A stretch of DNA of 8,467 nucleotides. It comes from Desulfobacterales bacterium (GTDB lineage: Bacteria > Desulfobacterota > Desulfobacteria > Desulfobacterales > Desulfobacteraceae). Position numbers and translations under genes: made by a program. Location: the NCBI GenBank assembly GCA_022361135.1, contig JAKSBM010000337.1:1-8467 (forward strand), given 5' to 3'. Positions 1 to 8,467 of the stretch are shown piece after piece (positions within the stretch are counted from its first letter, which is position 1; every line of letters starts with the position of its first letter). A model generated the notes under the pieces. The model saw only the letters and a program-made list of their open reading frames with translations, was not told where the DNA came from and made no database searches.

Positions 1-1
1 C

Positions 2-427
2 CACGAACTGCTGACCGAAGGACGCATCACCATCGGGGAAAAATTCACCAAAAAAGTGACCCTCCACGATCCCTGCAACGTCTCCCGCGGCCGGGGCCTC
101 CACGACAAGGCCCGGGAAGTGGTGAACATGTGCTGCGATGATTTTGTGGAAATGACCCCCAATCGGGAACACAACCTCTGCTGCGGTGCCGGCGGCGGCG
201 TGATCAATTGTGGCCCTCCCTATAAAAAGGAACGCATGGTCAACAACAAGGCCAAGGCCGAGCAGCTGGCTGCCACCGGTGCCGAGGTCCTGATTGCACC
301 CTGCCACAACTGCCACTCCGGCCTGGAAGACATTGTCCACCACTACGGTTTGAACATGGAAGTCAAATTCCTGGGGGACATCATTTTTGAAACCATGGAA
401 AAGAAGATCTATAAACCGGGAGAATAA
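2..427 (+). CDS. tmcB: TmcB-like (HdrD/DsrK-family) iron-sulfur oxidoreductase, C-terminal part
   Basis: This gene runs in from before the window; the frame is open from base 2 and ends with TAA at 425-427, leaving 141 C-terminal residues. They hold one complete CCG domain, the module that binds a non-cubane [4Fe-4S] cluster in heterodisulfide-reductase-type proteins: HDPCN (Cys25 of the visible part), LCCGAGGG (Cys60-Cys61) and APCHNC (Cys101, Cys104), with the usual spacing. HdrD, DsrK, TmcB and HmcF share this fold and act as cytoplasmic-side electron-transfer subunits of membrane complexes. I prefer TmcB because a TmcA-type cytochrome gene begins two bases after the stop codon. The GTG at 56 is an internal codon and not a start, since the homology begins upstream. 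As I recall, Desulfovibrio has the order tmcA-B-C-D, whereas here B precedes A. Family assignment is secure; the exact subunit name is less so. Confidence 0.8.
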   Translation, partial: HELLTEGRITIGEKFTKKVTLHDPCNVSRGRGLHDKAREVVNMCCDDFVEMTPNREHNLCCGAGGGVINCGPPYKKERMVNNKAKAEQLAATGAEVLIAPCHNCHSGLEDIVHHYGLNMEVKFLGDIIFETMEKKIYKPGE

Positions 428-429
428 GT

Positions 430-825
430 ATGAACTATCGAATTTGGACCTTGAGCCTCTTACTTTTGCTGACGGTGGGTGTGTTCAATGTATTCTCCAG
501 CGGGGATGCCGACGAGGTGGAACGCCTGGAAGTGGATGCCTATGAAACCCAGATGCGCCCCAGTGCGGTTTTTTCCCACGACGACCACAATGAAAAGGCC
601 GGGCTGGAAGATGATTGTGCCCTGTGCCACCACGTGTATGAAGATGGAAAACTGGTTCCCGACGAATCCAGTGAAGACAGCACCTGTGCCGAATGCCACG
701 GACTCCAGCCCACCAAGGAAAACCACGTGGCCCTGACCGAGGCCTTTCATGCCCGTTGTATTGAATGTCACTACGAGTCGGCAAGGGGGCCGGTTCTCTG
801 TGGCGAATGCCATGCGAAGAATTAA
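430..825 (+). CDS. tmcA: TmcA-like acidic tetraheme cytochrome c3, periplasmic
   Basis: The 131-residue product has a Sec signal/anchor segment (hydrophobic residues about 5-22, weakly charged N-terminus) and no clear AxA cleavage site, so it may be cleaved near residues 23-28 or stay anchored. Four CxxCH heme sites follow at Cys63, Cys86, Cys110 and Cys124. Extra histidines (His50, His53, His68, His99, His107) supply candidate axial ligands for bis-His hemes. The mature part is rich in Asp and Glu, as in the acidic type II cytochrome c3 (TmcA) that takes electrons from periplasmic hydrogenase or type I cytochrome c3 and passes them to the Tmc membrane complex. All four sites are CX2CH; many type I cytochromes c3 have CX4CH at two hemes. 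GGGAG at 418-422 lies 7 bases before the ATG, and the gene follows the TmcB-like gene by two bases, so the two are cotranscribed. Cytochrome c3 is very likely; the TmcA subtype rests on acidity and neighbourhood. Confidence 0.85.
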   Translation: MNYRIWTLSLLLLLTVGVFNVFSSGDADEVERLEVDAYETQMRPSAVFSHDDHNEKAGLEDDCALCHHVYEDGKLVPDESSEDSTCAECHGLQPTKENHVALTEAFHARCIECHYESARGPVLCGECHAKN

Positions 826-834
826 GGAGGAAGG

Positions 835-1188
835 ATGACCCAGAAGATTATGATCGTTGACGACGATCCCGCCATTACCATGTACCTGGAGGCCCTGTTC
901 ACGGACCATGGGTTTGAAACCTGTGTGGCCGACGACGGAAAGGCCGCCGTGGAGACCTTTGAAAACGAAAAGCCCGATCTCATTACCCTGGATCTGGAAA
1001 TGCCCGAAGAATGGGGCCCCCGTTTTTTCAGGAAGGTTTCCAAGACCAAAGGGTTCAACACCCCGGTGATTGTGATTTCCGGGTTGTCGGGTCGCCAGCA
1101 TTCCATCCCCAAGGCCCAGGGCTTCTTTGCCAAGCCCTTTGACCCCGAAGCGGTGATTGCCAAAGTGAAGGAATTGCTATCGGATTAA
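835..1188 (+). CDS. Stand-alone response regulator receiver protein (CheY-like)
   Basis: The product is 117 residues, only a receiver domain. Visible receiver residues are the acidic cluster Asp9-Asp10-Asp11, the phosphoacceptor Asp53 in LDLEMPE, the switch Ser82 in ISG, and Lys100 in AKPFD. No output domain follows, so it works as a phosphate carrier, a sink or a protein-interaction switch. It starts 9 bases after the tmcA-like stop codon with a strong AAGGAGG at 824-830, and it precedes the heme-bearing sensor kinase by 36 bases. That kinase is the obvious candidate partner. The stretch between switch Ser and Lys (18 residues) is a few residues shorter than in CheY. The tight link to the cytochrome gene suggests transcription with the electron-transfer genes. 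The receiver identity is certain; partner and role are inferred. Confidence 0.93.
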   Translation: MTQKIMIVDDDPAITMYLEALFTDHGFETCVADDGKAAVETFENEKPDLITLDLEMPEEWGPRFFRKVSKTKGFNTPVIVISGLSGRQHSIPKAQGFFAKPFDPEAVIAKVKELLSD

Positions 1189-1213
1189 CTTCCTGCCGGA
1201 CGCAGGCGTAGAA

Positions 1214-1218
1214 GGAGG
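1214..1218 (+). promoter_or_regulatory. Ribosome binding site supporting a TTG start
   Basis: GGAGG ends 6 bases before TTG at 1225, the normal spacing. The first downstream ATG (1237) would be 18 bases away, so the TTG is the better start for the heme-bearing kinase. Confidence 0.7.
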
Positions 1219-1224
1219 CGTTGG

Positions 1225-3594
1225 TTGAAAAAAAGAATGATACATGCCAGAGGGCTTTCGTTCAAGTTACTCATCCCGGTGGGTATCATTCTTTTTGCCG
1301 GCGTCTTCATCGCCTCCCATTTTTCCGGCAAATACCGCGAGCGGCAGCGCATTGCCTCGGCGGTTACCCAGGTGGACCGGTTCTGTAATTCCGTGCTCAA
1401 GCTCACCTGGTTTGCCATGCTCCACAGTCCCAGCGAGGACATGCATGAGATTCTCAACTCCATGTCCGACTACAACGACATTGAGCAGATTCGGATTTTC
1501 AATTGCCAGGGCCAGGTCCGCTTTTCCAACAATCCCAGGGAAGTGGACCTGTTCCGGGAAAAGACCGACACCGCCTGTGCCGCCTGTCACCGCCGGGATC
1601 CCCCCCGCATGGTTACGGAGATTGATGAACGGGTCCGGATCTTTGAATCCCCGGAAGGGGAATTAAAGCTGGGCCTGATCAATCCCGTGGTCAATGCCCC
1701 ATCCTGTTCCGCTTCGGACTGCCACTACCATCCGCCCCAACGCACCAAGCTGGGTTCCCTTGAAATCATTGTTTCCCTGGAGGACATCCGCCGGGAAATC
1801 GCCGCCAGCCAGACCGTTTCCTTCTACACCGCCCTTTCCCTTTTCGTTGGCCTGGGCCTCACCATCTCCGCCGTCATCGGCCTTTTGGTCACCCGACCCA
1901 TTTCTTCCCTCATCCAAAGAACCCGTTCCATTGCCGCCGGGGAATTCCATGGTTCCGAGCCGGAAACCCTCTGGGCCGACGAGCTCCACCAGTTGGACCG
2001 GGCCGTCAACGACATGGGGGAGAAGATCCGGGAAAAGCAGGAGGAACTCAACCTGCAAAAGGAAAAATTCCGCCACCTCTTTGACCAGGTGCCCTGTTCC
2101 ATCACCGTGCAGAACGACCAATATGAGCTGGTGGAGTTCAACCGGGAGTTTGCCCGGCGCTTTAATCCGGAATACGGGGATTTCTGCTTTGCCGCCTACA
2201 AGGATCTGGACCGGAAATGCGACAATTGCCCCGTGGAGAAAACCTTCCGGGACGGCAAATCCCATTTCAGTGAGGAGTCGGGTATTAATAAGGATGGCAG
2301 CATCTCCCATTGGTTTGTGAAAACAGCCCCCCTCATGGATGAAAGGGGCCGGGTCACGGCGGCCATGGAAATGAGCCTGGACATCAGTCGGTTAAAGCGG
2401 CTGGAAAAGGAAGTCCGGATTTCGGAAACCAAATACCAGGCCGTGTTCAAGCACATCCCCAATCCCATTTTCATCCTGGACCGCCAAAGTCTTTCCATCC
2501 TGGACATCAATGATGCGGCCACGGCCACCTACGGCTATTCCCGGACCCGGCTCCAGGATGAGAATTTTTCCATGCTCTTTCCCTCGCCCACGGAGTTCGA
2601 TCGGGTGCGCAAGAATCTATCCACCCCCTTCCACGAACGGCTGGTCCACATCAAGGCCAACGAGGATTACCTCTATGTGAACATCTGGATCCGGCCGGCG
2701 GAGTTTGTGGACCAGCAGGTCCTCATCGTGGCCGTGGTGGATATCACGGTATCCGTGGAGGCGGAGCAGCAGCTCATCCAGGCCGGGAAGATGGCCACCC
2801 TGGGCGAGATGGCCACGGGGGTGGCCCACGAATTGAACCAGCCCCTTTCCGTGATCAAGACCGCTTCCTCCTTCATTGCCCGGAAGATCAATTCCAATGA
2901 ACAGATTGACCGACCCATTTTGGAAACCCTGTCCCGGGAGATCGAATCCCATGTGGACCGGGCCTCGAAAATCACCAATCACATGCGCCTGTTCGGCCGG
3001 AAGTCCGTTTTCCAAAAGGAGGCCCTGGACGTCAATGAGGTCTTGAAGCGGGCCTTTGATATCTTCAGCCAGCAGCTCAAGCTCCGGGAGATCCAGGTGG
3101 TCTGGGATCTGGACGGGGAATTGCCCGCCCTCCATGCGGATCCGGTCCGGTTGGAGCAGGTTTTCATCAATTTGCTCATCAATGCCCGGGATGCCATTGT
3201 CAGCCGGGCCAAGGAAGCCGAAGAACCGGGATTTAAAAAGGAAATCCGGCTGGAAACCCGCTGGCATCCCCCGGAGAACGAGGGCCACTCCCCGGCCGGG
3301 GGCAATGAACTCATCGGCCGGGATGCCGGGGAGTTCATCCAGGTGAAAATCCGGGACACGGGCACGGGCATTGCCAAAACCGACCGGGATAAGTTGTTTG
3401 AACCCTTTTTCACCACCAAAAAGGTGGGGGAGGGCACCGGGCTGGGCTTGTCCATTTCCTACGGCATCATTAAGGAGAGCGGGGGCGAGATCAGTTTCCA
3501 CAACAATAAGGACGGCGGGGCCACCTTTATCCTGATCTTCGGGGTGGCGCCGGCCTCGGATAAACCGGCAATTGCCGGGGAGGAAAAACCATAG
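1225..3594 (+). CDS. Membrane sensor histidine kinase with periplasmic diheme sensor, HAMP and two PAS domains
   Basis: The 789-residue product begins with TTG. Order of parts: membrane helix about 12-32; periplasmic domain about 33-195; second helix about 199-223; HAMP about 222-275; PAS about 280-390; second PAS about 400-510; HisKA with phosphoacceptor His535 in VAHELNQPL; and an ATPase domain with N box (Asn653), DTGTGI (711-716), FEPFFTTK (725-732) and GTGLGL (737-742). The HELNQPL form is that of the FixL/NtrB/DctB-type kinases. The periplasmic domain has a CxxCH heme motif (Cys118, Cys121, His122) and a CX4CH motif (Cys161, Cys166, His167), so it probably carries two covalent hemes and senses redox state or a small ligand. 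The first PAS holds the cysteine set Cys321, Cys332, Cys335 followed by Pro-Val. No receiver is fused, so phosphate must go to separate receivers, several of which are encoded next door. The gene lies within a closely spaced + strand run. Kinase identity is certain; heme attachment follows from the motifs and the ligand is unknown. Confidence 0.93.
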   Translation: MKKRMIHARGLSFKLLIPVGIILFAGVFIASHFSGKYRERQRIASAVTQVDRFCNSVLKLTWFAMLHSPSEDMHEILNSMSDYNDIEQIRIFNCQGQVRFSNNPREVDLFREKTDTACAACHRRDPPRMVTEIDERVRIFESPEGELKLGLINPVVNAPSCSASDCHYHPPQRTKLGSLEIIVSLEDIRREIAASQTVSFYTALSLFVGLGLTISAVIGLLVTRPISSLIQRTRSIAAGEFHGSEPETLWADELHQLDRAVNDMGEKIREKQEELNLQKEKFRHLFDQVPCSITVQNDQYELVEFNREFARRFNPEYGDFCFAAYKDLDRKCDNCPVEKTFRDGKSHFSEESGINKDGSISHWFVKTAPLMDERGRVTAAMEMSLDISRLKRLEKEVRISETKYQAVFKHIPNPIFILDRQSLSILDINDAATATYGYSRTRLQDENFSMLFPSPTEFDRVRKNLSTPFHERLVHIKANEDYLYVNIWIRPAEFVDQQVLIVAVVDITVSVEAEQQLIQAGKMATLGEMATGVAHELNQPLSVIKTASSFIARKINSNEQIDRPILETLSREIESHVDRASKITNHMRLFGRKSVFQKEALDVNEVLKRAFDIFSQQLKLREIQVVWDLDGELPALHADPVRLEQVFINLLINARDAIVSRAKEAEEPGFKKEIRLETRWHPPENEGHSPAGGNELIGRDAGEFIQVKIRDTGTGIAKTDRDKLFEPFFTTKKVGEGTGLGLSISYGIIKESGGEISFHNNKDGGATFILIFGVAPASDKPAIAGEEKP
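3577..3583 (+). promoter_or_regulatory. Ribosome binding site at the kinase/receiver-kinase junction
   Basis: GGGGAGG lies inside the 3' end of the kinase gene, 12 bases before ATG at 3596. It supports that ATG over the in-frame TTG at 3572, which lies upstream of this site. Confidence 0.55.
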
Positions 3595-3595
3595 C

Positions 3596-4795
3596 ATGGA
3601 TTCCCAGGCCCATACCCTTTTATTGGTGGACGATGAAGAAGGCATCCGCAATGTGCTGGACATCACACTGAGCCATGCCGGTTACCAGGTGCTCACGGCC
3701 CCGGACGGGGAGACGGCCATGGGGATCTTCCAGGATGCCGAGCCGGAAATCGTGATTTCCGATATCAAGATGCCGGGCATCGACGGCATTGAACTGCTCC
3801 AGCGCATTAAATCCCGTGCCCCGGAAACCGAGGTGATCATGATCACCGGCCACGGGGACATGGAATTGGCCGTGAAAAGCCTCCAGCACGAGGCCACGGA
3901 TTTCATCACCAAACCCATCGACAGTCGGGAGCTGGAGCTTTCCGTGGAAAAGGCCGTGGACCGCATCACCATCAATCGACGCATCCGCCAATACATGGCC
4001 GAGTTGGAAGACACGGTGAAGGAGCAGGACCGGACCATTGATGAAACCCGGGCCCTGGGCACCATCGGCCAGACCGTGGCCGGCATGTCCCACGTGATCA
4101 AGAATATCGCCGGCGGCCTCAAGGGGTCGTCCTTTATCCTGGAGCAGGGCATTGAAAACGAAAACCGGGAATACCTGGTCAAGGGGTGGGAAATGATGAA
4201 GGGGAATATCGATAAGATCACCCGACTTTCCCTGGATCTGCTCAATTACGCCAAAACCGGACAATTGCGATTTGAGCCGGTTTCATTGCCCACCCTGGTC
4301 ACCGAGGCCGGTAATTTGCTGGCTCCCCGGTTCAAGGAGGCCGGCATCGAATTTATTTCAACCCTTGCATCGGGTGTGGGGCAAATTCAGGTGAATGGAG
4401 ACCGCGAAGCCCTTCTGGCCTGTTTGCTCAACCTTTTGGACAACGCCGTGGATGCCTTGGCACCCCGGGAGTTTGACGCCAAGGGGAATATGGAATCCAG
4501 GGCCCGGCAAATTGCCCTGGAGCTGGAAGGGCAGGGCGACGGCATCTGCCTTACGGTCCGGGATACCGGGGCCGGCATGCCCGGGGACATACAAAAACGA
4601 ATATTCAAGGAGTTTATCACCACCAAGGGGACGCGGGGCACGGGTTTCGGCCTCATGACCTCGTGGAAAATTATATCCGAACACCAGGGGGAATTGTCCT
4701 TTAGTTCAAAGGAGGGGGAGGGAACGCAGTTTCGCATTTTTCTTCCCAGGGACGCTGGAGGACAGGTCTCCCCGAAACATAAGGATGTGACATGA
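3596..4795 (+). CDS. Receiver-histidine kinase fusion with atypical phosphoacceptor region
   Basis: From ATG 3596 the product is 399 residues; a TTG at 3572 in the same frame would add eight unlikely residues. The start follows the kinase stop codon with one base between (TAG-C-ATG). Residues about 5-120 are a receiver: Asp12-Asp13, phosphoacceptor Asp56 in SDIKMPG, Thr84 in ITGHGD and Lys106 in TKPID. A helical linker rich in charged residues (about 120-155) leads to a dimerisation region with His166 in MSHVIKNIAGGLKG, then an ATPase domain with N box (Asn283 in LDNAVDAL), DTGAGM (323-328), and GTRGTGFGL. The His region lacks the usual H-E-x-x-x-P-L pattern. There is no membrane segment and no sensor domain, so the protein is cytosolic and its input is probably phosphorylation of its own receiver. 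It closely resembles the fusion at 6886-8376 but has no PAS domain. Architecture is certain; kinase activity and the exact His are inferred. Confidence 0.88.
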   Translation: MDSQAHTLLLVDDEEGIRNVLDITLSHAGYQVLTAPDGETAMGIFQDAEPEIVISDIKMPGIDGIELLQRIKSRAPETEVIMITGHGDMELAVKSLQHEATDFITKPIDSRELELSVEKAVDRITINRRIRQYMAELEDTVKEQDRTIDETRALGTIGQTVAGMSHVIKNIAGGLKGSSFILEQGIENENREYLVKGWEMMKGNIDKITRLSLDLLNYAKTGQLRFEPVSLPTLVTEAGNLLAPRFKEAGIEFISTLASGVGQIQVNGDREALLACLLNLLDNAVDALAPREFDAKGNMESRARQIALELEGQGDGICLTVRDTGAGMPGDIQKRIFKEFITTKGTRGTGFGLMTSWKIISEHQGELSFSSKEGEGTQFRIFLPRDAGGQVSPKHKDVT

Positions 4796-5328
4796 ACAGA
4801 TTAACCCTGACGGGCGACGGCAAAATCCGGTTCCGGGGGGAACCGGTGACACAGTCGGTCTATTCCCTTTTGTCCAGATCCATTGATCTGGCCGGGGATG
4901 TGACCCTGGCTTCATTTTTCAGGATGATTCGCAATTATCCGGATTTTCTGGTCCTGTCGGAAATGTTGCCGGCCCTGATGGAAATTTGTTCTACTTCCCA
5001 ACCCGGTTGGGAAAAAACCGAAGAGATAGACAGTCTGGTGTTTTACAAGACCATTACCATGAAAGGAGGCAAGGAACGCACCGGTCTTGAGATCTACACC
5101 AGTTTAGCGGGGGTAAAAGATGCAGGAAAGGTCCAATTAAAATTTTTCCAGCTGGAAAGCCTTTTGGGGCATTCCCTGGAATTGGGGCAATTGGAACACG
5201 TGATATTTGGGGACGGCCAGGATCTGTTTCAATACGACACGGTGTACACCCTGTTTGAGTTCATTGAAGGGATCTGCTGGGAACTGTCCTTTAATTTCAA
5301 TCCATTACAATGCACTTTAAGGAGGTAG
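4792..5328 (+). CDS. Conserved-looking protein of unknown function in a signalling operon
   Basis: I do not recognise this 178-residue protein. Its ATG overlaps the stop of the preceding receiver-kinase gene (ATGA, 4792-4795), with AAGGA at 4781-4785 before it, so translation is coupled. It has no signal peptide, no membrane segment, no heme motif and no clear metal-binding cluster (single cysteines at 66, 162 and 174). The composition suggests a soluble mixed alpha/beta protein: a basic start (KIRFRGEPV), a middle part with alternating hydrophobic strands (residues 80-120), and an aromatic-rich C-terminus (FEFIEGICWELSFNF). Codon use resembles the neighbours, so it is a real gene. The stop codon TAG at 5326-5328 directly abuts the ribosome binding site of the universal stress protein gene. 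Its place between a receiver-kinase and a universal stress protein suggests a role in the same signalling path. I recall a hypothetical gene next to the universal stress protein gene near tmcA in Desulfovibrio vulgaris, but cannot say whether it is homologous. Confidence 0.8.
   Translation: MNRLTLTGDGKIRFRGEPVTQSVYSLLSRSIDLAGDVTLASFFRMIRNYPDFLVLSEMLPALMEICSTSQPGWEKTEEIDSLVFYKTITMKGGKERTGLEIYTSLAGVKDAGKVQLKFFQLESLLGHSLELGQLEHVIFGDGQDLFQYDTVYTLFEFIEGICWELSFNFNPLQCTLRR
5319..5325 (+). promoter_or_regulatory. Strong ribosome binding site deciding the start of the universal stress protein gene
   Basis: AAGGAGG lies 5 bases before ATG 5331. An earlier in-frame ATG at 5310 would add seven residues, but it lies upstream of this site and inside the previous gene. 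The site runs directly into that gene's TAG stop at 5326-5328. Confidence 0.85.
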
Positions 5329-5330
5329 AA

Positions 5331-6245
5331 ATGTTTGAACGTATATTATTTGCCACCACAGCTTCTCCGGCGTGTGATGCAGCCGCAAAGATTGCATTTG
5401 AGCTGGCGGAGAAATATGATTCCCAATTTGAAGTCTTCCACGTCTTCGGTGAACCCTCCCGGGGAGCGGGACCCTTTGTCCGCTCCTATACCACGGGCAA
5501 GGAAAATACCGTGGGCCCGGAATATGTGGATTATGTGGTCAATGAAATGAAATACACCTACACCGACCTCATTGAAAAACACGGGGTGCCGGATTTTGAA
5601 GCCGTGGCCGGTATTCCTTCCACGGAGATCCTGCGCAAGGCCCGGGCCATGGATGCGGATTGCATCGTCATGGGCGCCCATTCCCGGCGGGATGATCCGG
5701 CCGCCGAGCGCTTCCGGGGCATTGTGGGCACCACCATGCAGAAGGTGGCCCAGCGGGCCAAATGTCCGGTGCTCATCATCTCCCGTCCCTGTGAAACCTG
5801 TTTCTGGTACTTTAACCAGATCATTTTTGGAACGGATTTTACCAAGGCCTCCATGGCGGCATTTCAGTTTGCTTATAAGATGGCCAGGCAGATCGGCTGT
5901 AAACTCCATCTCTTCCATGCCCTGGATGTTGAAGCCTCGGCAAGCGGCGGCCGTCCCGGACAGGTCTCCATTGAAGAACAGGTCCGCCTGGCCCGGGAAA
6001 AAATCCAGAACCGTTATGTCTCCCAGATGGAGGGATTTGACAACTATGACGTCACGGTGTGGGAAGGCATTCCCTATGTGGAGCTGTTGAAGTTCTCCCG
6101 GGAGGTGAGCGGCGATCTCATCGTCATGGCCCACCACACCCGTGAAATTGACCCGGATGAGGCCATGTTCGGCTCCACCGTGGAGCAGGTGGTCCTGCGC
6201 TCGGCCTGTCCCGTGGCCAGCGTGAACAGACCGGATAAACTCTGA
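5331..6245 (+). CDS. Universal stress protein with two tandem UspA domains
   Basis: From ATG 5331 the product is 304 residues. Two Usp domains lie in tandem: about 1-152, opening with FERILFATTAS and closing with CPVLIISRP, and about 160-300, opening with FNQIIFGTDFTKAS and closing with CPVASVNRP. The ATP-loop region of the first reads MGAHS (114-118) and then GIVGTT (130-135); that of the second reads MAHHT (266-270) and then FGSTVEQV (280-287). Both depart from the classical G-2x-G-9x-G(S/T), and in the second domain the first Gly is Ala, so nucleotide binding may be altered or lost there. A CETC pair (154-157) lies in the linker and could respond to thiol redox state. The protein is soluble and cytosolic. 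It is preceded by the unknown gene and overlaps the next receiver gene by one base (TGATG), so it belongs to the signalling operon. Family assignment is very sure; the specific role is not known. Confidence 0.94.
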   Translation: MFERILFATTASPACDAAAKIAFELAEKYDSQFEVFHVFGEPSRGAGPFVRSYTTGKENTVGPEYVDYVVNEMKYTYTDLIEKHGVPDFEAVAGIPSTEILRKARAMDADCIVMGAHSRRDDPAAERFRGIVGTTMQKVAQRAKCPVLIISRPCETCFWYFNQIIFGTDFTKASMAAFQFAYKMARQIGCKLHLFHALDVEASASGGRPGQVSIEEQVRLAREKIQNRYVSQMEGFDNYDVTVWEGIPYVELLKFSREVSGDLIVMAHHTREIDPDEAMFGSTVEQVVLRSACPVASVNRPDKL

Positions 6246-6673
6246 TGGCGGATAAGGCGCAGGTTCTCATCATGGAGGATGAGATGGACATGCGGTTCTA
6301 TCTCACGGCCCTGGTCAAATCCATGGAACTTGAACCTGTCATGACCCGGAACGGTATCCAGGGTCTTGGGATTCTGAAGCAGCAGCACCATGCCGTGGAT
6401 CTCATCATCCTGGATATCATGATGCCGGACAAGGGCGGCGCACTGGTCTATCGGGAGTTAAAGACCCTGCCGGAGTACAGGGATATTCCCCTGGTGATTT
6501 TCTCCGGCGTGGAGCAGGCCGCCTTTTGCCATTATATTCGCATGCTCAATGCCGAATCCGGCCTGGATATTCCCCAGCCGGAATACTATGTTGAAAAAAC
6601 AGCCGATCCAGAGTATTTAAAAACAATTATCAATCGGTGCTTAAATCGGACATCGACTTCACCTTCTGCCTGA
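6245..6673 (+). CDS. Stand-alone receiver protein with extended beta4-beta5 region
   Basis: The product is 142 residues, a single receiver domain. Visible residues are Glu11-Asp12 in MEDEMDM, phosphoacceptor Asp57 in ILDIMMPDKGG, Ser87 in FSGVE and Lys118 in VEKTAD. The stretch between the switch Ser and the Lys is about 31 residues, longer than the roughly 20 in CheY, and Thr replaces the common Pro after Lys. This part (AESGLDIPQPEYY, 104-116) may be a partner-binding surface. The start ATG overlaps the TGA of the universal stress protein gene (TGATG) and there is no good ribosome binding site, so translation is probably coupled. There is no output domain. It is the last gene before the 212-base gap, hence the probable end of the operon. 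The receiver identity is sure; the partner is unknown. Confidence 0.92.
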   Translation: MADKAQVLIMEDEMDMRFYLTALVKSMELEPVMTRNGIQGLGILKQQHHAVDLIILDIMMPDKGGALVYRELKTLPEYRDIPLVIFSGVEQAAFCHYIRMLNAESGLDIPQPEYYVEKTADPEYLKTIINRCLNRTSTSPSA

Positions 6674-6724
6674 CCTGGATTTTCCCTTCCTGCCCAGATG
6701 ATTCCAGGATGTCCCTTTGGCCGT

Positions 6725-6759
6725 TCCAGGCCCATGCCGTGAATATCGCCGGGCCTGGA
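6725..6759. repeat. Perfect 9-bp inverted repeat, possible terminator stem or operator
   Basis: TCCAGGCCC (6725-6733) and GGGCCTGGA (6751-6759) are perfectly complementary with a 17-base spacer. It lies 52 bases after the stop of the receiver gene. The stem is GC-rich, but no run of T follows, so a classic Rho-independent terminator is not supported. It could stabilise the 3' end of the message or be a protein binding site. Confidence 0.5.
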
Positions 6760-6797
6760 GACAGCGCTTTCGTAAAACCGTCTTAGCAGGGTTTTAT

Positions 6798-6818
6798 TTC
6801 CCACAAAATTGGTGGGAA
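6798..6818 (+). repeat. 7-bp stem with 7-base loop in the leader of the last gene
   Basis: TTCCCAC (6798-6804) pairs perfectly with GTGGGAA (6812-6818) around the loop AAAATTG. It lies 67 bases before the start at 6886 and is followed by GGTTCGAATC, which looks like a tRNA T-loop but lacks a T stem. A regulatory leader element is possible; no known riboswitch is recognised. Confidence 0.4.
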
Positions 6819-6875
6819 TAACCGGTTCGAATCTTACACGGAACCCATGGCCGTGGCATATTCGGGCCATGGAGC

Positions 6876-6881
6876 AGGGGG
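6876..6881 (+). promoter_or_regulatory. Ribosome binding site deciding the start of the last kinase gene
   Basis: AGGGGG lies 4 bases before ATG 6886. The earlier in-frame ATG at 6847 has only weak ACGGA upstream and would add 13 residues before the receiver's first strand, so 6886 is preferred. Confidence 0.6.
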
Positions 6882-6885
6882 CTCA

Positions 6886-8376
6886 ATGAAAGTATTGCTG
6901 GTGGATGACGAAGAGGGGATTCGCAACGTACTCTCCATTACCCTGGCCGATGCCGGGTATGAGGTCCACACCGCCGAAGACGGTGTCATTGCCTCGGGGA
7001 TGATTCCCCGGCTTCGCCCGGATCTGGTGCTCACGGACATTCGTATGCCCGGCCTGGACGGCATTGCCCTGCTCAAATTCATAAAAAAGAAATGGCCGGA
7101 CACCGAGGTGATCATGATCACGGGCCACGGTGATCTGGAGCTGGCCATTGAAAGTTTGAAGCTGGATGCCGTGGATTTCATCACCAAGCCCATCCACCCC
7201 GATATTTTGGACATTGCCCTGAACCGGGCCCAGGACAAGATCAATACCCGGAAAAAGCTGGCCCTTTACACACGGAATTTGGAAAGTCTGGTGGCGGAAA
7301 AGACCCGGAAGCTGGCGGTCTCCGAGCAACGGTACATGCGTTTGTTTAACCATTCTCCGGCCTTCATCACCATATTGGACCGAAACTTGAGGATTCTGGA
7401 ATCCAATGACCGGTTCAAGGAAACCTTTGGGGAGCCGGACCAGGGCCATTGTTACCAGGTTTTCAGGAACCGGGAGGACCCCTGCCGCAATTGCCCGGTG
7501 ATCCAGACCTTTGAAGACGGCCTTTCCCACACCGCGGAAATGGACATTCCCCTCAAGGATGGTGAGGTCCATAATTTTTTCATCCAGACCTCGGCCCTCA
7601 CCGATGACCAGGGAACCATCCACCAGGTCATGGAAATGGCCACCGATGTGACGGAATTCCGGGAACTCCAGGATCACTTGGCAGCCCTGGGTCTGCACAT
7701 TTCAACCATTTCCCACGGTATTAAAGGGATATTGACGGGCATGGACGGGGGCAATTATCTGATTTCATCGGGGCTGGACCGGGGGAACACGGACCAGGTT
7801 CGCATGGGATGGGACATTGTAAAGGAAAAGATCAACATCATCCGCAGCATGGTCCTGGGCATCCTTTACCATTCCAAAAACCGGGAATTGGAGCCCCGTG
7901 ATGTGGATCTCTTTGATTTCATACAAGAGCTGGTCACCACCCTGGCCCCCAAGATGAAAAGTCTGGATATTCAGCTGGCGCTGGATATCCCCCGGCCCGA
8001 TTCCGGGGTCACCGTGCCCATGGACAAGACCGTGATGTTTGCGGCCCTGCTGGCCATCCTTGAAAATGCCGTGGACGCCTGTGCCGCCATGGCGGGCAAG
8101 CGGGATCGTTTGATGATTTCCATCCATGCTGCCCGCAGCCGGGACCAGGCCGTTTTCAGCATCCGGGACAATGGCACCGGCCTGTCCCGGGCCTATGCCC
8201 GGGAGGTCTTTTCCCTTTTTTATTCCAACAAGGGACGCAAGGGGACCGGGCTGGGATTGTTCATCGCCCACCGCAGTGTCAAACAGCACAATGGGGAAAT
8301 TCGCATCAACTCCACCCCGGGGGAATTCACGGAATTCATCATCACCCTGCCCCTGGAATCCATAAATTCTTCCTGA
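6886..8376 (+). CDS. Receiver-PAS-histidine kinase fusion with atypical phosphoacceptor region
   Basis: From ATG 6886 the product is 496 residues. Residues 1-120 are a receiver with Asp7-Asp8, phosphoacceptor Asp51 in TDIRMPG, Thr79 in ITGHGD and Lys101 in TKPIH. A coiled-coil-like linker (about 120-146) joins it to a PAS domain (about 147-258) with the cysteine set Cys189, Cys200, Cys203 followed by Pro-Val. The dimerisation region has His277 in ISHGIKGILTG, and the ATPase domain has N box Asn394 in LENAVDA, DNGTGL (428-433) and GTGLGL (453-458). There is no membrane segment. It resembles the fusion at 3596-4795 in receiver and kinase parts, with the PAS domain as the main difference, so the two are probably paralogs. 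It follows a 212-base gap, so it may have its own promoter, and a hairpin with a short T-run follows its stop. A soluble signal integrator is likely; what the PAS domain senses is unknown. Confidence 0.9.
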   Translation: MKVLLVDDEEGIRNVLSITLADAGYEVHTAEDGVIASGMIPRLRPDLVLTDIRMPGLDGIALLKFIKKKWPDTEVIMITGHGDLELAIESLKLDAVDFITKPIHPDILDIALNRAQDKINTRKKLALYTRNLESLVAEKTRKLAVSEQRYMRLFNHSPAFITILDRNLRILESNDRFKETFGEPDQGHCYQVFRNREDPCRNCPVIQTFEDGLSHTAEMDIPLKDGEVHNFFIQTSALTDDQGTIHQVMEMATDVTEFRELQDHLAALGLHISTISHGIKGILTGMDGGNYLISSGLDRGNTDQVRMGWDIVKEKINIIRSMVLGILYHSKNRELEPRDVDLFDFIQELVTTLAPKMKSLDIQLALDIPRPDSGVTVPMDKTVMFAALLAILENAVDACAAMAGKRDRLMISIHAARSRDQAVFSIRDNGTGLSRAYAREVFSLFYSNKGRKGTGLGLFIAHRSVKQHNGEIRINSTPGEFTEFIITLPLESINSS

Positions 8377-8381
8377 AATTA

Positions 8382-8400
8382 AAGTCCCTTGTTGGGATTT
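8382..8400 (+). terminator. Weak terminator-like hairpin after the last kinase gene
   Basis: AAGTCCC (8382-8388) pairs with GGGATTT (8394-8400) around a TTGTT loop, with one G-T pair. Only a short T run is available, within the 3' arm. It lies 5 bases after the stop codon and just before a promoter, where a terminator is expected, but the stem is weak. Confidence 0.35.
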
Positions 8401-8415
8401 CCGCCTATCCTGGAT

Positions 8416-8443
8416 TTGACAAGATCAATTCCCGTGTTATGAT
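8416..8443 (+). promoter_or_regulatory. Sigma70-type promoter reading out of the window
   Basis: TTGACA (8416-8421) matches the -35 consensus exactly. After a 16-base spacer comes TATGAT (8438-8443), five of six matches to the -10 consensus. The surrounding sequence is AT-rich, unlike the GC-rich genes. Transcription would start near 8450 and serve a gene beyond the window; AGGGGGA at the window's end could be the start of its leader or ribosome binding site. Confidence 0.7.
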
Positions 8444-8467
8444 TTTAGAATTGAAAATTCAGGGGGA

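Follow-up and report, generated by a model that had tools for sequence, protein, structure and literature searches.

The window described here, the whole stretch of DNA that was analysed, comprises 8,467 nucleotides from a Desulfobacterales bacterium (Desulfobacteraceae; GCA_022361135.1, contig JAKSBM010000337.1, positions 1 to 8,467). It carries the end of a tmc gene cluster followed by genes for receivers, histidine kinases, a universal stress protein (Usp) and a 178-residue protein, U178. Judged from their sequences, these signalling genes (the module) probably form a redox-sensing multi-step phosphorelay serving the Tmc and Hmc transmembrane electron-transfer complexes; we put the probability at about 0.6. 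U178, Usp and the second receiver, RR2, constitute a near-invariant block found by Tmc and/or Hmc genes in most relatives, and the four receiver domains and three kinases of the window retain their phospho-Asp and His residues. The + strand holds eight complete genes and one truncated gene (TmcB):

2..427, +, TmcB, C-terminal part with CCG domain, cut by the window edge (PF02754, 43.8 bits; NF045724, 236 bits)
430..825, +, TmcA, acidic tetraheme cytochrome c3 (NF045722, 146.7 bits, curated cut-off 114; four c-type heme motifs, CXXCH; computed isoelectric point 4.6, residues 25-131)
835..1188, +, RR1, stand-alone receiver of the DVU0259 family (NF045717 'DVU0259_DivK', 169.5 bits, curated cut-off 160)
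1225..3594, +, HK1, membrane histidine kinase (TTG start, ATG alternative at 1237; Pfam domains)
3596..4795, +, RRHK, receiver and kinase, no Pfam HisKA match (PF00072, PF02518)
4792..5328, +, U178, 178-residue protein of unknown function (no Pfam or NCBIfam match)
5331..6245, +, Usp, tandem universal stress protein with RPCxTC between both Usp domains (PF00582, two stretches)
6245..6673, +, RR2, second stand-alone receiver (PF00072, 46.9 bits)
6886..8376, +, RRHK2, receiver-PAS-kinase, last gene of the set, open reading frame (ORF) opening at 6847 (PF00072, PF08448, PF02518)

The identities assigned at 2-6673 in a preliminary description of this DNA (Tmc proteins, receivers, kinases, Usp) are borne out by the ORFs and by Pfam and NCBIfam. 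Both RR1 and TmcA belong to their curated families. TmcB covers profile positions 297-430 (134 of 430) and cannot reach the full cut-off of 735 bits because the gene is truncated by the window edge. As in the Tmc complex (TmcABCD), the window holds TmcA and the TmcB C-terminus; TmcC and TmcD, if present, fall outside it.

Neighbourhoods of U178 and co-occurrence with TmcA

A 26-member alignment of U178 relatives located 91 sites in named genome contigs; we retained the 80 best and mapped all of them, using the window proteins as queries. Tmc and/or Hmc genes were found in 57 of the 80 loci, as labelled by these queries with size and score rules, by which individual labels may err; one example each of TmcC, TmcD, HmcA, HmcB, HmcC and HmcF scored above its NCBIfam cut-off. 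Neither complex was scored in 23 loci, 17 of them flanked by under 8 kb on one side or both; one of the 23 (L034) actually carries HmcC above the cut-off. Tmc and/or Hmc genes accompany 32 of the 38 loci with full flanks (at least 8 kb on both sides), which bears out the supposed conservation of the association in distant relatives; homologs of the signalling genes do occur near tmc genes elsewhere.

Gene order is steadiest for U178-Usp (77 of 80 loci) and Usp-RR2 (73 of 80). HK1 and RRHK are adjacent in 55 loci, TmcA and RR1 in 27 of the 31 loci with a TmcA label, and a relative of RRHK2 directly follows RR2 in 43. The preliminary description had ended the set at 6673 and is one gene short, RRHK2 belonging to it too. 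The module is not specific to Tmc: HmcF lies immediately before U178 in 28 of the 80 loci, and these Hmc-adjoining loci rule out an exclusive linkage to Tmc. On the U178 tree, with its bootstrap unsettled and 25 of its forks open, the Tmc or Hmc label changes 24 times across 79 rows (mean of shuffles 40.6), and we draw no history of the two linkages, single-origin or other, from it.

Two evenly drawn genome samples were compared: a phylum sample (395 genomes) and a class sample (149 genomes, from the class of the Pseudodesulfovibrio genome G001). In the phylum sample, 7 genomes have U178, 20 have TmcA above its cut-off (23 if all matches at E ≤ 1e-30 are counted) and 15 have the DVU0259 receiver above its own. 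All 7 U178 genomes fall within the 23 with a TmcA match (hypergeometric 8.7e-10; this and the two values below ignore genome relatedness and are optimistic). In G010 and G266, U178 follows HmcF on a contig different from that of tmcA. The receiver genomes are TmcA-positive in 12 of 15 cases, with the receiver on the tmcA contig in all 12, 0.05-12 kb off (hypergeometric 2.1e-15). In the class sample, 32 genomes carry U178 and 91 have a TmcA match at E ≤ 1e-30, 90 of these 91 scoring above the cut-off (hypergeometric 1.0e-8). Every one of the 32 has U178 and its TmcA match on one contig: the gap measures 20-109 bases in 21 genomes and 3.6-8.7 kb in 10, and in the remaining genome, where TmcA falls slightly short of the cut-off, it is 24 kb. 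The U178-positive locus L156 reads tmcDCBA-U178-Usp-RR2-RR1-RRHK2, which we take to be the order in Desulfovibrio vulgaris from DVU0266 down to DVU0258; L157 reads tmcDCBA-U178-Usp-RR1-RRHK2, plus RRHK and HK1.

The three receiver genomes that are not TmcA-positive are G324, G095 and G147. A mixed cluster was seen in G324 (L134), with TmcD/TmcC/TmcB-like and then HmcA/HmcB/HmcC-like genes, a DVU0259-like receiver and a kinase; G114 (L136) and G342 (L137), with the receiver near the cut-off, have the same cluster. The clusters of G324, G114 and G342 resemble a hybrid of Tmc and Hmc accompanied by similar signalling genes. G095 (L133) has no convincing complex gene, and G147 (L135) is represented by a 6.7-kb contig without one.

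Sensor kinase, receivers, Usp and U178

HK1 consists of a predicted periplasmic Cache-like sensor with CXXCH and CX4CH, a HAMP stretch (under the Pfam cut-off), two PAS domains, HisKA and HATPase. The kinase had been described as heme-bearing; it has two c-type heme motifs, CXXCH lying about 43 residues N-terminal of CX4CH, and both are kept in 42 of 42 HK1 relatives. The predicted structure of the sensor is a Cache fold of WalK type. Its profile match to the c-heme sensor 3b42 is weak (E 4e-4 overall, neither stretch being significant by itself). The Mcp40H-20 sensor family PF21563 matched 25 of 30 sensor members at E ≤ 1 (best 5.3e-7), and the Tll0287-like family (sCache_heme, PF11845) 3 of 30 (best E 0.039); the segment from the window matches no family. 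At E ≤ 1e-65, sensor matches occur in 11 genomes, 8 of them TmcA-positive. HK1-type sensor domains often stand as two copies within about 10 kb (G037, G075, G165, G256, G299), in frames of about 530-610 and about 270-360 residues.

Related c-type heme sensors of Cache/PAS-like type (Geobacter GSU0582/GSU0935, DcrA, sCache_heme; PMC8396549, PMC12889525) share with HK1 a predicted periplasmic Cache-type domain with CX2-4CH before the signalling output; HK1 differs by its second motif and by feeding a kinase beside tmc. The heme region of GSU0935 (3b42) aligns weakly with the CX4CH region of HK1. Two motifs are not unique to HK1, since two Geobacter signal transducers with two heme motifs are listed in PMC8396549.

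A stretch of Cys-x10-Cys-x2-Cys in the HK1 PAS region (residues 321-336, window 2185-2232) is invariant in 44 of 44 HK1 rows and is possibly a metal or redox site; the PAS of RRHK2 shows a similar stretch.

The phospho-accepting Asp and His residues are invariant across RR1, RR2, RRHK, RRHK2 and HK1 in alignments of 41-85 rows each, selected by score and length: D53 and K100 of RR1 in 41 of 41 rows; D57 and K118 of RR2 in 85 of 85 (75 loci and the window); D55 and H165 of RRHK in 52 of 52; D64 and H290 of RRHK2 in 58 of 58. Pfam finds no DNA-binding domain in the window proteins.

RPCxTC stands between the Usp domains in 77 of 77 high-scoring Usp relatives. The control is a weak one: among 11 lower-scoring Usp ORFs of the same loci, 2 have the motif (incomplete copies of the module gene) and 9 lack it, some being fragments of broken module genes. 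The GxxG-x9-G(S/T) pattern that marks the ATP-binding Usp subgroup has no match in translated 5331-6245.

Neither Pfam nor NCBIfam matches U178 at E ≤ 0.001; at the same threshold, 858 relatives were found among 7998 candidates scored. H136 and C174 are invariant in the 26-member alignment. The predicted fold is confident (pLDDT, predicted local distance difference test, 87.6; pTM, predicted template modelling score, 0.84), with no PDB match at E ≤ 0.001. The U178 of Pseudodesulfovibrio has a recorded homolog in Pseudodesulfovibrio piezophilus, a cultured species (P0185, 67% identity). The U178 family is uncharacterised and usually encoded beside Tmc/Hmc complexes. Foldseek returned two viral proteins whose predicted folds resemble that of U178, A0A6J5SUI5 (E 2e-9, TMq 0.78) and A0A248SJN1 (E 5e-7); tblastn with one family member as query found no phage records.

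Proposed role and alternatives

In the phosphorelay proposed here, the two motifs of HK1 would bind hemes that exchange electrons, or equilibrate, with the periplasmic cytochrome c3 pool. Their reduction or oxidation would alter the activity of the kinase, and phosphate would move on to the stand-alone receivers RR1 and RR2 as well as to the receiver domains within RRHK and RRHK2. Output would pass through protein contact by U178 and/or Usp, the CXXC of the latter being a possible thiol switch, and would adjust the amount or activity of the Tmc or Hmc complex. The module may control transmembrane electron flow. It bears on how sulfate reducers direct electrons across the membrane, between periplasm and cytoplasm, by way of Tmc and Hmc, and it supplies named genes for studying this: the heme-motif sensor, the receivers that lack a DNA-binding domain, the Usp with its CXXC, and U178.

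Several observations weigh against a phosphorelay serving these complexes, besides the optimism of the hypergeometric values. Six of the 38 full-flank U178 loci lack either complex nearby; TmcA occurs elsewhere in their genomes, above the cut-off in four and below it in two. Nothing within 19.9 kb of the DVU0259 receiver of G095 (L133) is a convincing Tmc or Hmc gene. The module is optional: 59 of the 91 TmcA-positive genomes of the class sample have no U178 match, and among the phylum sample's 20 TmcA regions, 7 show no module gene in the stretch, while 12 do and G146 has its receiver about 2 kb beyond the stretch. In a negative control of 18 U178-negative TmcA loci, hand-picked from high-scoring rows of the 59 genomes (stretches of 14-18 kb), none of the 18 had a U178 or Usp match and the best receiver matches reached 19-29 bits; in a few of these loci other kinases, scoring up to 137 bits against HK1, lie some kilobases away. 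A module universal with Tmc is rejected by these 59 genomes and 18 loci. The HK1-type sensor domain is common, with matches at E ≤ 1e-25 in 109 of the 395 phylum-sample genomes, which rules out a heme sensor specific to Tmc, and the sensor model is of moderate confidence (pLDDT 75.3), falling below 50 around the second heme motif.

The alternatives to this phosphorelay reading are not mutually exclusive. Possible, if doubtful, is transcriptional control, in which the last partner of the phosphorelay is a DNA-binding regulator, encoded nearby or unlinked (a sigma-54 activator or Rrf2), that sets tmc/hmc expression, with U178 and Usp as accessories. Two ORF clusters that recur among the 80 neighbourhoods are in keeping with it: a sigma-54 activator typifies one (22 loci), Rrf2 the other (18 loci), and one representative of each was identified. 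An Rrf2-like gene next to tmcA in L125 also fits. By Pfam, however, the window contains neither regulator; the sigma-54 cluster may mix paralogs, and the order count labelled only window proteins, so that no fixed position was mapped for it. A more specific form of the phosphorelay reading, in which the relay has no DNA-binding output and gates Tmc and Hmc directly at the protein level, the two-heme Cache kinase reading the cytochrome c3 pool and U178 and the CXXC Usp acting on the complex, is offered with considerable reserve.

It is unlikely that U178 serves Tmc/Hmc as a structural or assembly subunit and that only the remaining genes are for signalling. Its place directly after HmcF in 28 of 80 loci, and no more than 110 bases from tmcA in 21 of the 32 U178 genomes of the class sample, would suit a subunit; however, TmcA is so often found without U178 in the class sample (the 59 genomes above), and the steady pairs U178-Usp and Usp-RR2 show that U178 travels with the signalling genes. 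Least probable is a general energy or redox stress circuit that sits in the tmc operon merely through shared expression conditions and does not target Tmc: Usp proteins are general stress proteins, some Desulfobacula loci have the module without tmc or hmc nearby and many tmc operons lack it, but the module adjoins either of two distinct, related complexes and co-occurs with TmcA far above chance.

Known clusters and layout of the window

Regulators are encoded next to a transmembrane redox complex in the hmc-rrf1-rrf2 operon of D. vulgaris. The window differs from that operon, its partners being phosphorelay proteins, Usp and U178, with no Rrf2 gene.

The association of tmc with signalling genes has been described in Desulfococcus multivorans, with D. 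vulgaris cited (PMC5109826), and is therefore not new; the D. vulgaris parallel drawn in the preliminary description agrees with that text. The clusters of D. multivorans DSM 2059 and D. vulgaris Hildenborough likewise have tmc genes near receivers, Usp and histidine kinases (PMC5109826). The D. multivorans cluster also has Hmc genes, whereas the window shows none; its regulators and Usp are termed 'DNA-binding' there, whereas the window proteins have no such domain by Pfam. Neither the two-motif sensor nor U178 is mentioned in section 21 of PMC5109826. Tmc is described as important in hydrogen use and its cytoplasmic partner as not known in PMC4215793. Among the texts examined, in part and with subscription papers not covered, the association is described only in PMC5109826; it is unmentioned in the corresponding parts of PMC4215793, PMC3333781, PMC10920352, PMC10102598, PMC8401546, PMC2702500, PMC11887813 and PMC6491731, and nothing was found in this literature on the function of the module signalling genes. 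A literature search within the same limits found no paper for DVU0259 and, for DVU0258 and DVU0260-0263, one proteomics paper containing DVU0263 only. The arrangement is a further member of a known one, optional for Tmc and common to Hmc; what this analysis adds is the neighbourhood survey, the finding that Hmc is often the neighbour, the sensor kinase with its two invariant motifs, and U178 as a family.

The intergenic spacings of 2, 9, 36 and 1 bases reported earlier are correct, given starts at 430, 835, 1225 (TTG) and 3596. The overlaps said to follow hold in part: U178 overlaps RRHK by 4 bases and RR2 overlaps Usp by 1, but Usp begins 2 bases after U178. Its start at 5331 is preferred over 5310 because AAGGAGG sits just upstream of 5331; AAGGAGG also stands before RR1 and HK1. 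A consensus scan shows neither a + strand promoter-like nor a terminator-like site between tmcA and the receiver at 835, in line with the earlier proposal of one transcript; the whole of 430-8376 is free of promoter-like sites on the + strand, and 6674-6885 is free of terminator-like ones. Terminator-like sites on the + strand number seven, all intragenic (16 in total, against 11.6, standard deviation 3.7, expected from shuffles). Co-transcription of tmcA and the signalling genes as one transcript is plausible from this layout.

No tRNA or Rfam matches were found in the window. The gap between RR2 and RRHK2 (6674-6885, 212 bases) contains a perfect 7-bp hairpin, TTCCCAC...GTGGGAA, without a T run. 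Right after RRHK2, a promoter-like site lies at 8416-8443 (TTGACA/16/TATGAT, 11 of 12) and possibly serves a gene beyond the window.

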